A DNA stretch of 32,935 nt from Acidobacteriota bacterium (GTDB lineage Bacteria; Acidobacteriota; Thermoanaerobaculia; Thermoanaerobaculales; Sulfomarinibacteraceae), in the NCBI GenBank assembly GCA_024641545.1, contig JAHECW010000044.1:1-32935 (forward strand), in the 5' to 3' direction. The notes beneath the pieces were generated by a model. It was given only the letters and a program-made list of their open reading frames with translations, had not been told where the DNA came from and searched no databases. This document shows positions 1,572-17,206 of the stretch, one piece after another. Each line of letters begins with the position of its first letter. Position 1 is the first letter of the stretch. The position numbers and the translations under genes are program-made.

Positions 1572-1599
1572 ATTCACAATTCATGGTTCTCAATTCATC
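1572..1599. repeat. heptamer repeat array (ATTCACA type)
   Basis: Four 7-nt units in phase: ATTCACA, ATTCATG, GTTCTCA, ATTCATC. It belongs to the same degenerate heptamer class (roughly RTYNNSA) found at 3029-3184, 12032-12121, 14688-14873 and 16727-16754. It lies between the divergent namZ-like and ribBA genes, and I see no inverted partner here. The following 1620-1700 region contains small GC-rich palindromes such as GGCGGC-A-GGCCGCC. Confidence 0.5.
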
Positions 1600-1792: not shown

Positions 1793-3025
1793 GTGACCGA
1801 CGAATTCCTGGAGATTGCCGGCGATGTCTTCATCCCCACCGACGAGGCCATCCGGCGGATCGGTCGCGGCGAACAGATCGTCGTGGTCGACGACGAGGAC
1901 CGCGAGAACGAAGGGGACCTGATCTTCGCCGCCGATGTGGTGACCCCGGAAGCCATCAACTTCATGGCGCGATTCGGGCGCGGCCTGATCTGCGTCGCCA
2001 TGACCTCGGAGCGGTGCGACGAGCTCGACCTCCCGCTGATGGTCGAAAAGAACACCTCGGCGCACGAAACCGCGTTCACCGTCAGCGTCGAAGCCGCCAG
2101 GAACACCACCACCGGTATTTCCGCGCACGACCGCGCCGAGACGGTTCGAGTCCTGGCGGACCCGGCCTCGGTCCCGAACGACCTTCGGCGGCCCGGCCAC
2201 ATGTTCCCTCTGCGCGCGCGTCGCGGCGGGGTTCTCAAACGCGCCGGCCACACCGAAACCGGTGTCGACCTGGCGCAGATGGCGGGTCTCAACCCGGCGG
2301 CGGTTCTGTGCGAGATCATGGATGACGACGGCCAGATGGCCCGGCTGCCGCGCCTGGCGGCGTTCGCCCGAGAGCACGGTCTGGGTCTGACCACCGTGGC
2401 CGATCTCATCGCCTACCGGATGAAGAACGAGAAACTGGTCGAGCAGGTGGCGGGACCCGAGCTGCCCACCGAGTTCGGACGTTTTCGGATCCACGCCTAC
2501 CGCAACAAGGTCAACGGCGAAGAGCATGTGGCTCTGGTCATGGGCGAGATCGATCCGACGGAACCGGTGCTGGTCCGGGTCCACTCCCAGTGTCTGACCG
2601 GCGACGTCTTCGGCTCGGCGCGCTGCGACTGCGGCGTCCAGCTCGATGCAGCCCTGGAGCGCATCGCCATCGAAGGCAAAGGCGTGCTGCTCTACCTGCT
2701 CCAGGAGGGCCGCGGCATCGGACTGTTCAACAAGCTTCGCGCCTACGAGCTCCAGGATCAGGGTCAGGACACCGTGGAGGCGAACCTCCACCTCGGGTTC
2801 AAGGCGGATCCCCGCGACTACGGCACCGGCGCTCAGATTCTCTTCGACCTCGGCGCACGACGCCTGCGGCTGATGACCAACAACCCGACGAAGTTCACCG
2901 CGCTGCGCGGGTACGGCCTGGAAATCGTCGAGCGGGTGTCGCTCGAAATTCCACCCAACGAGACCAACCGCGCCTATCTCGAGACCAAGAAGCTCAAGAT
3001 GGGCCACCTGTTGAAGATGGTCTAG
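1793..3025 (+). CDS. ribBA: bifunctional 3,4-dihydroxy-2-butanone-4-phosphate synthase / GTP cyclohydrolase II
   Basis: 410 residues. It makes the two precursors of riboflavin: dihydroxybutanone phosphate from ribulose 5-phosphate, and the pyrimidine from GTP. The RibB half carries [10 protein letters not shown] (33-42) and RPGHMFPL (133-140). The RibA half has the zinc cysteines C267, C278 and C280 within [16 protein letters not shown], plus EGRGIG (305-310) and NNPTKF (363-368). Both halves look catalytically intact. A longer frame opens at 1667, but GTG at 1793 is preferred because GAGGAG lies about seven nt upstream and the protein then starts at the usual family position. No FMN riboswitch was recognised upstream. 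Other rib genes are not nearby. Confidence 0.95.
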
Positions 3026-3028
3026 AGG

Positions 3029-3184
3029 GTGAGACGTTGGAGGTCAGACGTCAGACGTGAGACGTGAGACGTGAGAAGGTGGAGATTGGAACGTCGATGG
3101 AGCGTCGGGGGATTTCAAAAACGCCCGCCTCACGCGCTTCGCATCTGACTCCTAACGTCCAACTTCTCACGTCTCACCTCTGAC
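3029..3184. repeat. inverted pair of heptamer arrays
   Basis: Left array 3029-3091: nine 7-nt units in strict phase, including GTCAGAC twice and GTGAGAC three times. Right array 3143-3184: six units of the reverse complement (CTCTGAC, GTCTCAC, TTCTCAC and so on). The arrays start three nt after the ribBA stop and could fold into a long imperfect hairpin with a 51-nt loop. This fills most of the 229-nt gap between ribBA and mfd. There is no T-tract, so it is not a classical terminator. Confidence 0.7.
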
Positions 3185-3254
3185 CCCTGCCACCGGCGCA
3201 CCGCCGCAACGGGGTTCTGCAAGAGACCTGTGTAAAGTTGCTGCTTGAGGTTGG

Positions 3255-6200
3255 ATGATGACTGCTCGATCCCCCCTGCCCCTTCCGGATCTGTCCTCGT
3301 TGGTCGAGGCGCTCGGACGCGGCGACGCCCCGCTGGCCGTCGGGGGGGTGGTTCCCGGCGCTCGTTCTCTGGCCGTGGCAGCCCTTGCCGATGGCGGTTG
3401 GCGACCCTCTCTCGCCGCGGTGGTGGTGCCCCACGTCGCGGAGGTCGATGATCTCGCGGCCGGGCTCGAGCTGCTCGCACCCGAGCTCGGCGTGGGACGG
3501 GTTCCGGGCGATCTCTGCGCCCCCTACCATGGCGCCGAACCTCCCCTCGCATCGAGACTCGAGCTGGCCCGACTGCTCCGACGCGTGGCCGAGGGCGAGG
3601 TCCGGGTGGTGGTGGTTCCGGTGCGCGCTCTCCTCGGTGCGCTCCCCCTGCCCGATGCGGTCGCGGCCCAGGTCGAGCGCCTGGTCCCGGGCGAGGTGCT
3701 CGATCAACGACGTCTGGCGGACCGACTCACCGCGGCCGGGTATCGACGCGTCGACCTGGTCGAGGAGGCGGGCGAGTTTGCGGTCCGGGGGTGGGTGGTC
3801 GACATCCACGACGGCGGCGACCATCCGCTGCGGATCGTCCTCGACGATGATCGGATCGCGGAGATCCTCCGTTTCGACGCGGCCAGCCAAAGGACCACCG
3901 GCGAGCCTCTGAGCGAAACGACGCTCTACCCTCTCGATCCGTTCCCGGCCGAACCCGAACGCCTCGCGGTCGTCTCCGACACCCTCGCGCCCGAGTGGCC
4001 GGCCCTCGCCGAAGCCATGCGCTCGGGCGCCGAGCGACGGCTCTGGTGGGCGGCGCTCCACCTCGAAGACGAGGTCACCAGTTGGCTCGATCTCGCCGAT
4101 GTGACGGTGGTCTGCGATCGCGACGATGCGGTCGGCGAGCTCCACCGCTGGCGGCAGGCCCAGGATCGCGAGTGGAAGACCCTGGAAGGGCGCTCGGTCG
4201 CCCTCCCGCCGCCGGATCGGATCCTGCTCGACGCGGCGAGCATCTCCGATCGTCTCGAGACCGCCGATCTCCGCCTCGAGCGTCTCGAGGTCGCCGATGG
4301 TGAAACCAAGTGGTGGCGGATCGCGGCCAGCCCCATGGAGGACTTCTCTCGGCGCATCCCCGATCTCGTTCCCACCCTGCGCAACCGCCGCGCCCAGGAC
4401 CTGACCCAGATTCTGGTGGTCGCCACCAAGGGCGAGGAACGGCGGTTCGAACACCTTCTGAAAGAGGGAGAGGTGGTCCCGGTGGCCGCACCCCCGTCGA
4501 TGGGCGAGGTGTCCATCGTTCAGGCGGGAATCGAGCATGGCTTCGTCGTGCGCGACGGGCTCGCGATCTACGGCCGACGCGATCTCACCGCGGCGCCGCC
4601 GCCGCGTCGGCGCCGCGGCGGGGCCGCGGCCTTTGTCTCCGATCTCCGCGATCTGAGACCCGGAGATACGGTGGTCCACCTCGATCACGGGATCGGCCGG
4701 TTCGATGGCTTCCGCCGGGTCGTGGTGGAGAACCGCGAGCACGAGATGTTGGTCCTCGCCTACCGCGGCGGCGACAATCTCCTGGTTCCCGTCGAACGCG
4801 CGGATCTCATCCAGAAGTACGCGTCGGGGGAGGGCGAGGCCGGCCCGCAGCTCGACCGGCTCGGAGGATCCACCTGGGCCAAACGCAAGGCGAGGGTCAA
4901 GAAGGCGGTCCGCGAGATGGCGGCGGCCCTGCTCCGGTTGGCGGCCGTACGCCGCGGCGCGCGTGGATTCCGGTTTTCGCCCGACTCGCCGTGGCAGCGC
5001 GAGTTCGAGGACGCCTTCGAGTACGAGCTCACCTACGACCAGGACCGGTCGATCTCGGAGATCAAGACCGACATGGAGTCCGACCGCCCCATGGACCGCC
5101 TCCTCTGCGGCGATGTCGGCTACGGCAAGACCGAGGTCGCCATCCGCGCCACCTTCAAGGCGGTCCTCGAGGGCAAACAGGTGGCGGTCCTCGCCCCGAC
5201 CACGATCCTCGTCGGCCAGCACCTCGAGACCTTCCGGCGCCGATTCGCCGGGTTTCCCGTGGAGATCCGGATGCTGTCCCGTTTTGTCTCCGCCAAGGAC
5301 TCCAGGCAGACCCTCGAGGAGCTCGCGCAGGGTCGGGTCGACGTCGTCATCGGCACCCACCGGCTGCTCGGCTCGGATGTCCGTTTCCGCGATCTCGGTC
5401 TCGTCGTCCTCGACGAGGAGCAGCGCTTCGGCGTCGCCCAGAAGGAAAAGCTCAAACAGCTGCGCACCGAGGTCGATGTGGTCTCCATGTCCGCGACTCC
5501 CATCCCGCGCACCCTCAACATGGCCATGAGCGGTCTGCGGGACATCTCGCTCATCGAAACACCACCGGTGAACCGGCAGGCGGTGGAGACCAGCGTCCGC
5601 GAGTTCGCCGAGGACGTGGTCCGCGAGGCCATCCTGTATGAGATGGAACGCGGCGGTCAGGTCTACTTCGTCCACAACCGGGTCAAGTCCATCGGCGCCT
5701 TCGCCGTCTGGCTGCACAAGGTGGTTCCCGAGGCCCGGGTGGTGGTCGGCCACGGCCAGATGTCCGAAGGTCAGCTCGAGAAGTCGATGCGGACCTTCCT
5801 CGACGGCGAGGCGGATGTCCTCCTCGCCACCGCCATCATCGAGAACGGCCTCGACATCCCGAATGCCAACACCCTCCTGGTCAACCGCGCCGACCGTTTC
5901 GGCCTCGCCCAGCTCTACCAGCTTCGCGGCCGGGTCGGCCGTTCCGATCGTCTCGCCTACGCCACCTTCCTGGTGCCTTCGGGTCAGGCGCTGTCGGGCA
6001 CCGCGCGGGCGCGCCTGGCGGCGATCCAGGAGTTCTGCGAGCTCGGAGCGGGGTTTCGCATCGCCGCCCGCGACCTCGAGATCCGCGGAGCCGGGAATCT
6101 CCTCGGCGCCGAGCAGCACGGCTTCATCGAGGCGGTGGGATTTGAAACCTATTGCCAGCTGCTCGAGGAGGCGGTGGCCGAGCTCGAGGGCCGGCCGGCG

Positions 6201-12031: not shown

Positions 12032-12121
12032 TTCTCAGTTCTCAGTTTTGAGTTATTGGTCGCATCGCAACCTCTCCAGGGCGGAGTGCGATGAAGACTA
12101 ATAGCGAGGAACTGAAACCCA
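12032..12121. repeat. heptamer array and imperfect inverted repeat between convergent genes
   Basis: Heptamers TTCTCAG, TTCTCAG, TTTTGAG, TTATTGG begin right after the stop codon at 12031. The right part, read in reverse complement, has TTTCAGTTCCTCGC then ATTAGTC and CATCGCA, facing ATTGGTC and CATCGCA on the left. The two arms of about 35 nt face each other across a short centre. It fills the gap between the small secreted protein gene and folE, which converge here. Confidence 0.55.
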
Positions 12122-12131
12122 AGAGCTCCTG

Positions 12132-13750: not shown

Positions 13751-14706
13751 TCACCGGTGTCACCGGTTTTGTCGGTCACCACCTGGCGGCCGAGCTCCGG
13801 GCCAACGACGGCGAGGCCGAAATCTGGGGACTCGCCTGGGGCGAGTACGATCCTGAAGGCCTGCAGCGAGCCGCCCCGGGTATCCGGTTGCTCGATGGAG
13901 ATCTCGTCGATCGCCGGTCCGTCAAACCGATCCTCGACATCGCCAAGCCCGATCTGATCTATCACCTTGCGGCTGCGTCATCGGTGGCGCGATCGTGGGA
14001 TTCTGCGGCGCGCTCTTTGGAAATCAACGCCATCGGAACCGCCCACCTCTTCGATGCGGTGCTCGAGGCGGGGCTCGATCCGGTGGTGGTGGTTTCCTCG
14101 ACCGCCGAGATCTACGGCCGGATCGACGACACCAGCGCAGCGGTCACCGAAGCGGCGCCCCTCGCGCCGATCTCGCCCTACGGAACCTCGAAGGTCGCCC
14201 AGGATCTTCTGACCTCGCAGTACCACGCCGGTCGCGGCCTGGCCACCATCCGCCTGCGCTTCTTCCACCTCACCGGCCCCGGACGACCGCCGCACTTCGT
14301 CGCGTCGTCGTTCGCCCGCCAGATCGCCCGGATGGAGGCAGGCCTCACACCACCGACCCTCGAGGTGGGCAACCTCGATTCGGTCCGCGACTTCACCGAT
14401 GTCCGCGACGCCGTGCGCGCCTGCAGATTGATCGCCGACCGCCGTCACGCGGGCGGCGTCTTCCACGTCTGCACCGGCCGCCCGGTAGCCATTTCCGAGG
14501 TCGTCAGGCTCCTGACCGGGATGAGCAAATGCGAGATCTCGGTCAAGGTCGACGAAAAGCGGACCCGTCCATCCGACATCCCATGGTTGGTCGGCGACCC
14601 GTCGCGGATCGAGGCGGCCACCGGCTGGCGGGCCGAGATTCCCCTCGAGCGGACCCTCCGCGATCTCCTCGACTGGTGGCGGGCAGAGTCGACAGTCGAC
14701 AGTTGA
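13738..14706 (+). CDS. NAD-dependent epimerase/dehydratase, GDP-6-deoxy-D-mannose reductase-like
   Basis: 322 residues of the extended short-chain dehydrogenase family: GVTGFVG (7-13), a Ser/Thr-rich active-site strand VVSSTAEIYG (118-127) and YGTSK (148-152). The segment PLAPISPYGTSKVAQDLL and the following RFFHLTGPG resemble Rmd, which makes GDP-D-rhamnose from GDP-4-keto-6-deoxymannose, more than UDP-galactose epimerases. The partner Gmd is not in the window, so the exact substrate is open. ATG 13738 overlaps the end of rfbD. The stop codon and the last few codons lie inside a heptamer repeat array, so the C-terminal STVDS is encoded by repeat DNA. Confidence 0.75.
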   Translation: MRILITGVTGFVGHHLAAELRANDGEAEIWGLAWGEYDPEGLQRAAPGIRLLDGDLVDRRSVKPILDIAKPDLIYHLAAASSVARSWDSAARSLEINAIGTAHLFDAVLEAGLDPVVVVSSTAEIYGRIDDTSAAVTEAAPLAPISPYGTSKVAQDLLTSQYHAGRGLATIRLRFFHLTGPGRPPHFVASSFARQIARMEAGLTPPTLEVGNLDSVRDFTDVRDAVRACRLIADRRHAGGVFHVCTGRPVAISEVVRLLTGMSKCEISVKVDEKRTRPSDIPWLVGDPSRIEAATGWRAEIPLERTLRDLLDWWRAESTVDS

Positions 14707-14873
14707 CAGTTCCGTTGTAGAACTCTCTTGGCTTGTGCGACCGCGGAATCTTGGAAACGAGCTGCATACCGGGGCGCCATATTTGAAACACAGAGGGCAC
14801 CGATGAAACAACCGACGATTCACCGGTTCACCTGTGATGGAACTGTCGACTGTCGACTTTGAACTGTCGACTT
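14688..14873. repeat. inverted pair of heptamer arrays overlapping a stop codon
   Basis: Left array 14688-14712: GTCGACA, GTCGACA, GTTGACA, GTTC. Right array 14840-14873 carries the reverse complement (CTGTCGA, CTGTCGA, CTTTGAA, CTGTCGA). About 127 nt lie between the arms. The left array contains the TGA stop of the upstream gene. A small CTTCTC-TCTT-GAGAAG hairpin follows at 14871-14886. Confidence 0.7.
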
Positions 14874-14947
14874 CTCTCTTGAGAAGCACGCCCCACCGTG
14901 GCACAGTGTGGCAACGGGATCGCCAGCGAGCCGACCGGGAGGAATGC

Positions 14948-16717: not shown

Positions 16718-16726
16718 CTGACCGAA

Positions 16727-16754
16727 GTCGACAGTTCACAGTCGACGGTCAACA
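16727..16754. repeat. heptamer repeat array (GTCGACA type)
   Basis: Four units in phase: GTCGACA, GTTCACA, GTCGACG, GTCAACA, starting ten nt after the stop codon at 16717. It matches the unit type at 14688-14712. Confidence 0.6.
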
Positions 16755-16862
16755 GCCCATCGCGATAGGACACGGATTCGCGCGGACCGAACTGATGGAC
16801 ACGAATCAGAGGAGCGTCGGCGGCTCTGGACTTCGTGGATCGGCAATCCGGCCGTCAGCGAG

Positions 16863-17037
16863 CTGTTTGAAACACAAAGATCACAAAGAACCACCAAGAA
16901 ACCACGAAGGAATTGACTTGGCTCATCGCAGGTCCTCAGGTGAGGGTGCGTCTCGAGCCTCGGAGGGAGCCCGGGTCAATACTGCGATGCCTGGTGGAGC
17001 CTTCGTCGGTCTTTGTGATCTTGTTGTTTCAAAACAG
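16863..17037. repeat. long imperfect inverted repeat
   Basis: Left arm 16863-16910 reads GCTGTTTGAAACA, then AAGATCACAAAGA, ending CGAAGG. The reverse complement of the right arm 17000-17037 reads GCTGTTTTGAAACA, then AAGATCACAAAGA, ending CGAAGG. Arms of 38-48 nt enclose 89 nt. The arms themselves are built of CACAAAG-like units. It may be a MITE-like remnant or a structured transcript end. Confidence 0.65.
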
Positions 17038-17122
17038 CGGCCCGTTCGGCCTCTCACACCGCGTCATCGGAGAACACCGCTCCATCGAGGTGGCGATTGC
17101 TCGTTCTCTGTAGTGTAAGTGC

Positions 17123-17196
17123 TGCGATGGGTCCAATAGCGACCTTCTTTGCGATGGTCTTGAAGTCCTTGGCGTCTTTGCGGTGAGCCTGCGATG
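17123..17196. repeat. dispersed ~75-nt element, copy 2
   Basis: Same ordered blocks as 256-331: TGCGATGGGTC, CTTTGCG, CTTGGCGT, TTGCGGTGA, TGCGATG. It ends ten nt before the thioesterase stop codon (17207), in the same orientation relative to that gene as copy 1 has to the namZ-like gene. Confidence 0.5.
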
Positions 17197-17206
17197 GATT
17201 CGGTTG

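Follow-up and report, generated by a model that had tools for sequence, protein, structure and literature searches.

Paired heptamer arrays as probable arms of dispersed palindromic intergenic elements in an Acidobacteriota genome

Bacterial genomes have for decades been seen to contain heptamer repeats, for which slippage or the binding of regulators is usually proposed. Elhai et al. reportedly found in 2008 that the small dispersed repeats (SDRs) of Nostoc are often embedded in heptameric tandem repeats. The sequences reported here have a short dispersed hairpin core within heptameric repeats and would by that description resemble SDRs, although sequences and phylum differ; the Nostoc repeats are probably the nearest described case, and the novelty of a core-plus-heptamer layout hinges on comparison with them. 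SDRs are also cited in PMC3116915. TAACTGA and other heptamer repeats are known from Beggiatoaceae, cyanobacteria and Bacteroidetes, and in the Maribeggiatoa genome 169 TAACTGA sets are direct and one indirect, most being located immediately upstream of start codons (PMC4679880). GGGAATC is a heptamer repeat of Xanthomonas (PMC4692102), and heptamers in general are thought to originate by slippage (PMC4692102, PMC4679880). REPs are small (20 to 40 bp), palindromic, dispersed and non-coding, carry a GTAG or CGTC tag and lie chiefly between convergent and co-directional genes near stop codons, with GTAG REPs accompanied by RAYT transposases (PMC3733652, PMC3116915).

The intergenic arrays that we describe resemble TAACTGA, STRRs and GGGAATC in their head-to-tail 7-nt units, their patchy occurrence in relatives and their variable length and sequence between related strains. 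Unlike TAACTGA, which is direct and precedes start codons, they form inverted pairs around a core, mostly near stop codons, and unlike direct heptamer STRRs they are convergent in 16 of 18 neighbouring cases and nearly fixed in polarity (103:2). They share with REPs and REPINs a short dispersed palindrome, an extragenic location near stop codons and many copies (36 exact cores, control 0), but differ in having heptamer arms on both sides of the core, and inspection of the core and arm ends of aligned elements found no recurrent GTAG or CGTC tag. Lacking the tag, and with no proven link to a transposase, the element is not filed as a REP. Repeats that form hairpins are already known; phased 7-nt arms around an exchangeable core appear to be new among REP/SDR-like palindromic repeats, and no description of inverted, matched, phase-locked arms and module exchange was found among openly licensed papers.

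The window, the whole 32,935-nt stretch of DNA that was analysed, is contig C108 of a 5.38 Mb assembly of 310 contigs (99% complete; genome G000). Around the reported sites lie genes for NamZ, RibBA, Mfd/TRCF, GTP cyclohydrolase I, an NAD-dependent epimerase and a thioesterase, as well as two genes whose products have no Pfam match; the nearest named-genome proteins to RibBA (1793 to 3025) are in Acidobacteria MAGs (71% identity). No Rfam match at gathering score was obtained within the window. The five array sites of the sequence-only reading were all present as described, and the features found at and near them are as follows:

1572 to 1599, minus strand: degenerate single arm, AATTCAC AATTCAT GGTTCTC AATTCAT (13/1000 shuffles)
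3029 to 3084, plus strand: left arm, GTNAGAN family, GTGAGAC GTTGGAG GTCAGAC GTCAGAC GTGAGAC ... (lag-7 score 24, 0/1000 shuffles)
3150 to 3189, minus strand: right inverted arm of the GTNAGAN element, TCCTAAC GTCCAAC TTCTCAC GTCTCAC CTCTGAC; pairs with the 3029 to 3084 arm in the predicted fold
12032 to 12054, plus strand: left arm of an ARTTNNN/CATCGCA element, AGTTCTC AGTTCTC AGTTTTG AGTT (lag-7 score 10, 0/1000 shuffles)
12063 to 12093, no strand assigned: 31-nt core hairpin, CATCGCA...TGCGATG; the genome has 36 cores of this kind
12110 to 12118, minus strand: eroded right arm AACTGAAAC; pairs with the 12032 to 12054 arm in the predicted fold of 12032 to 12121
14687 to 14711, plus strand: left arm, AGTYSAC family, AGTCGAC AGTCGAC AGTTGAC AGTT (lag-7 score 14-15, 0/1000 shuffles)
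14842 to 14873, minus strand: right inverted arm of the AGTYSAC pair, ACTGTCG ACTGTCG ACTTTGA ACTGTCG ACTT (lag-7 score 10)
16726 to 16755, plus strand: degenerate AGTYSAC array, alone not significant (378/1000 shuffles)
16866 to 17035, no strand assigned: second composite palindrome, with 8-9-nt repeat arms TTTGAAACACAAAGATCACAAAG ... CTTTGTGATCTTGTTGTTTCAA and core CATCGCA (16924) ... TGCGATG (16989)

For each site the best lag-7 score was compared with 1000 dinucleotide shuffles of its own gap. The observed score was matched by no shuffle of gaps 3026 to 3299, 12032 to 12131 and 14687 to 14905 and was attained by 13 shuffles of gap 1546 to 1711, four of the five sites thus beating their own background. 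The array at 16727 to 16754 does not do so by itself (378 shuffles of gap 16718 to 17206), and gains weight only because the orthologous gap in the sister species G001 carries a clear, strong AGTTGAC array pair. The pair at 14687 to 14873 also has an array pair of the AGTYSAC type in its orthologous G001 gap, and no inverted partner was found for the arm at 1572 to 1599. The left arm at 3029 begins 4 nt past the ribBA stop codon, that at 12032 directly abuts a stop codon in a convergent gap, and that at 14687 overlaps the end of the upstream gene.

Stretches of G000 totalling 1.05 Mb were analysed for 7-nt phasing and were partly picked by a GTGAGAC match; array density figures rest solely on the unbiased 0.79 Mb outside the window. 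This sample holds 43 intergenic lag-7 arrays vs a mean of 1.1 (maximum 3) in dinucleotide shuffles, a ~40-fold excess that extrapolates to ~280 arrays per genome. The genome-wide excess anticipated from the window is thereby borne out, as is the intergenic bias, with 47 intergenic vs 2 coding lag-7 arrays at a stricter threshold. Control lags 5, 9 and 10 gave 1, 3 and 0 intergenic arrays (0 to 3 across lags 5 and 9 to 11) and lag 8 gave 9, while lags 6 and 12 are likewise elevated (26 arrays each) owing to a separate hexamer class. Hexamer arrays of GATCCCGTTCCC and TCCCAGTCGGTG types were seen in G002 gaps at L195 and L216 and at L161:19560-19680, and the intergenic excess at lags 6 and 12 nearly equals that at lag 7.

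Inverted partners exceed chance, as had been proposed: successive arrays sharing one gap are convergent in 16 of 18 cases, and in the 17 array pairs lying no more than 250 nt apart unit identity is higher in the inverted orientation 15 times and in the direct orientation never, with two ties. The unit sequences, thought at first to be specific to each site, instead group into a few families (ARTTNNN, GTNAGAN and AGTYSAC). Lag-7 arrays were present in 16 of 80 loci from organisms of other phyla, where inverted and direct neighbouring arrays are about equal in number (7 vs 9), so on these data the inverted layout is no general property of bacterial heptamers. ARTTNNN as a universal cross-phylum rule was rejected: of the 54 arrays in these 80 loci, 9 fit it where 7.6 were expected. 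A Bacteroidia MAG carries a 340-nt run of GAATGATGAATGG heptamers (L082, 2547 to 2887), far longer than any in G000.

Printing every array-bearing gap revealed a recurrent inner motif, CATCGCA ... TGCGATG, between arms of the AT type, and the layout of the best-resolved family is (AATTNNN)3-5, CATCGCA, hairpin, TGCGATG, (NNN'AATT)3-5. The CATCGCA 7-mer is overrepresented in intergenic DNA (84 vs 16.5 expected). G000 has 36 CATCGCA/TGCGATG pairs spaced by 15 to 45 nt, and the genus's two other species have 12 and 10; the reversed pattern, used as a control, gives 0 in all three. Many of these cores share a length of exactly 31 nt and have visibly homologous interiors, as in CATCGCACAGTTTCGAGAAACGGTTGCGATG and CATCGCACAGCCTCGAGAAACGGTTGCGATG. 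For a blind test, cores were chosen by the CATCGCA/TGCGATG pattern alone, heptamers being disregarded, and 28 printed cores were judged by inspection. Arms of the AATTNNN type in 7-nt phase (A/T-rich, partly degenerate) flank 25 of them on both sides, the exceptions being one core without arms (L270), one with 8-9-nt arms (L279) and one with a clear right arm only (L269). Flank identity around the blind cores reaches 0.52 at lag 7 and 0.49 at lag 14 but lies between 0.22 and 0.31 at lags 2-6 and 8-13. In the direction leading to the core, on whichever strand, the 3-nt part of the unit is almost always CTC, ATG, CTT, TTG or a close variant, with 103 such forms vs 2 reverse forms; this set was defined after data inspection, an effect that the asymmetry far exceeds.

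We consider it probable, at roughly two chances in three, that most of the heptamer arrays that occur in pairs form the arms of non-coding palindromic elements of ~80-200 bp, dispersed among intergenic regions. On the DNA the element is a long imperfect inverted repeat. Many heptamer repeats of this genome would then become a concrete testable object, namely arms that match each other on palindromic elements whose core is separable. Insertion of a hairpin or core into an existing one-directional array was rejected because both flanks would then run in the same direction, whereas the arms are inverted (103:2). Composite palindromes with 8-9-nt repeat arms of the ACCACGAAGACACGAAGG type around a CATCGCA core were seen at 16866 to 17035 of the window and at L153:11842-11906, with further such arms around that core at L279 near 303 and in G001 (L214, 7440-7700). 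At L171:6451-6752, L143:9623-9928 and L174:7802-7988, a MITE-like sequence with terminal inverted repeats GAGCCTCTTGCAAAAA...TTTTTGCAAGAGGCTC lies within or beside heptamer arms.

The two arms of an element are matched to each other. When each arm is phased independently, own arms agree at 15.7 of 18 positions vs 14.2 with permuted partners (p = 0.0004, n = 12). In the outer helix of a 20-element alignment, 24 cells are changed on both sides vs 14.5 in column shuffles (0/500 reach 24), and 89% of cells are paired vs 30-41% after sliding by 1-3 columns. These tests support matched arms but are not proof of selection for pairing, because their controls leave subfamily structure in place. Predicted folds have z-scores of -5.3 for 12032 to 12121 (0/200 shuffles equally stable), -4.5 for 3041 to 3189 and -4.4 to -9.1 for three further single elements.

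Matching of same-element arms beyond the family level would also be expected if slippage built each array at its own site and template switching across a hairpin wrote the inverted copy, with no dispersed element at all. Slippage is the general origin suggested for heptamers, as cited above, and units do differ between orthologous gaps. However, such a process does not provide for the conserved dispersed core between the arms, and random local units would give both left-arm polarities rather than the one found at nearly all sites; we hold this explanation to be unlikely on balance. The sequence-only reading had itself proposed local amplification with an inversion or hairpin copying. The involvement of a hairpin stands, whereas independent local amplification is not supported, given the conserved core and fixed polarity. 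Copying of a hairpin at the birth of an element may occur, since arms match beyond the family level, but the match falls short of identity and no such step was observed.

Pairs of the GTNAGAN and AGTYSAC families, including that at 3029-3184, are read as further families of the same kind, with less well defined cores. GTNAGAN pairs at other loci enclose dispersed AGCGAGCG-type sequences, and the unit order at 3029 to 3189 is alike from both ends (GTGAGAC GTGAGAA GGTGGAG vs GTGAGAC GTGAGAA GTTGGAC). Placing the GTNAGAN family in the element class is an extrapolation, because its core-first test, run with AGCGAGCG cores, gave a weak result, with a flank identity of 0.355 at lag 7. In a G002 gap orthologous to one in contig C194, the GTNAGAN family is found at the same place, and G001 has an octamer/CATCGCA element there. 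The dispersed repeats CAGCGAGCGAAGCGAGCGCTGACC and CAGCGACCGGAGGGAGCGCTGACC were seen clustered among GTNAGAN arms, at times in tandem (L193:110-220, L160:8598 and 17457, L146:548-605). A resemblance of GTTAGAC to the integron core site, GTTRRRY, was considered and this candidate was dropped, the orientation being reversed and GTGAGAC failing the pattern.

Arrays are located at a median of 32 nt from the nearest stop codon. The share of gaps that hold an array is 17% where the flanking genes converge, 9% where they are co-directional and 3% where they diverge (p = 0.0017 for convergent against divergent). The blind cores with both neighbours called (n = 18) lie in 10 convergent, 7 co-directional and 1 divergent gaps, a convergent excess with p = 0.0002 against 17% convergent gaps. 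This preference, together with the very stable predicted folds and the double changes in the stem, would fit selected 3'-end RNA hairpins, as bidirectional terminators or mRNA stabilisers, that converged on one form with the repeats as tolerated material. Yet a T-run (≥6 T in 8) follows none of 56 arm ends, fold strength is not kept in orthologous gaps, and strict 7-nt phasing and shared unit families are left unexplained, making such convergence distinctly improbable. A canonical intrinsic terminator, that is, a GC-rich stem followed by a T-run, was rejected on the same 0/56.

Orthologous gaps were compared among G000, G001 and G002, as the sequence-only reading had suggested; arrays vary and unit families often differ between the species. 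Of the window's gaps, five hold arrays in G000 as well as in G001, the unit families differing in three, and G002 has no clear arrays in the window's orthologous gaps, which are mostly shorter. Over 28 orthologous gap comparisons neither fold z nor lag-7 score is conserved, the sole trend being that of G000-G001 lag-7 score (rho 0.57, p = 0.07, n = 11), and a conserved structural slot was rejected, both measures being uncorrelated. This lack of conservation argues against an essential function, and the differences between orthologous gaps represent fast turnover. Xanthomonas heptamers likewise vary extensively (PMC4692102).

If paired arrays are arms of palindromic elements, these may have spread in the manner of small, non-autonomous REP/SDR-like repeats and would persist where insertion harms least, just past stop codons. 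Heptamers may be gained and lost through slippage in 7-nt steps, the arms being kept matched by inter-arm pairing or by copying of one arm from the other. Transcription from either side would produce one long hairpin with the heptamers as its outer stem, and in mRNA the elements may act as 3'-end hairpins, in protection or pausing, and not as ordinary intrinsic terminators. Mobility is thus an inference: the orthologous gaps, too diverged to provide an alignable empty site, showed neither an insertion whose flanks could be aligned nor a target duplication. Element gain and loss, arm growth and effects on transcript ends are testable now, and a covariance model finds the element.

Element abundance is patchy among relatives, with covariance-model matches in 10 of 60. 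Strand-hits, which are rough counts as 78 candidates were scored per genome and most elements are tallied on both strands, number 76 in G000, 47 in G015, 26 in G019, 12 in G002, 11 in G001, 9 in G006, 8 in G012 and 4 in G016, and at most one in each remaining relative. Counts of GARTKAK doublets are 118 in G000, 295 in G006 and 670 in G012, whereas most sister genera have none or nearly none. G000, G006, G012, G015 and G019 are array-rich, and the sister genomes G004, G007, G010 and G011 array-poor. The sister genus g5 combines the same AATT{TTG,CTC,ATG,CTT} arms with a different core, similar in length, whose left side is C-rich and whose right side is G-rich (for example AATT-cccgcccaacctccctgagcaccgaggaggtggtggt-AATT). 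In G002 the CATCGCA core has AGTTNNN arms, with AACT on the opposite side, and in G001 AGTTGAC arms lie beside CATCGCA and 8-9-nt repeats. Arms and core are therefore separable modules that vary independently between lineages. A dedicated activity might build inverted, phase-locked heptamer arrays outward from hairpins and so make arms and cores interchangeable. With ARTTNNN arms found around unrelated cores in two genera, and one core bearing different arms in sister species, neither would be a mere passenger of the other. We think such an activity improbable, but if true it would represent a novel mechanism of repeat formation.

Convergent polarity and a unit family common to both arms would also be accounted for by a repeating-template polymerase, telomerase- or reverse-transcriptase-like, that adds heptamers to both 3' ends at a broken or hairpin-ended site. 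We assign this a very low probability: the dispersed core is left unexplained, and there was no RVT_1 match in the array-bearing G000, G002, G006, G017 and G019, leaving a reverse-transcriptase link unsupported. A Y1/RAYT link is also unsupported, as Y1 gene number does not track element number (2 in G000, 0 in the incomplete yet element-rich G019 and several in element-free genomes); no mobilising enzyme was identified in these checks for RVT_1 and Y1 transposase. Because sister lineages exchange arms and cores, the maintenance of the 7-nt phase can be tested directly in a single small clade. In G019 (L285, L254, L291), CATCGCA is itself tandemly repeated and grades into CAGGTCT/TCGCAGG heptamers, suggesting that the core of one lineage may be the heptamer of another.
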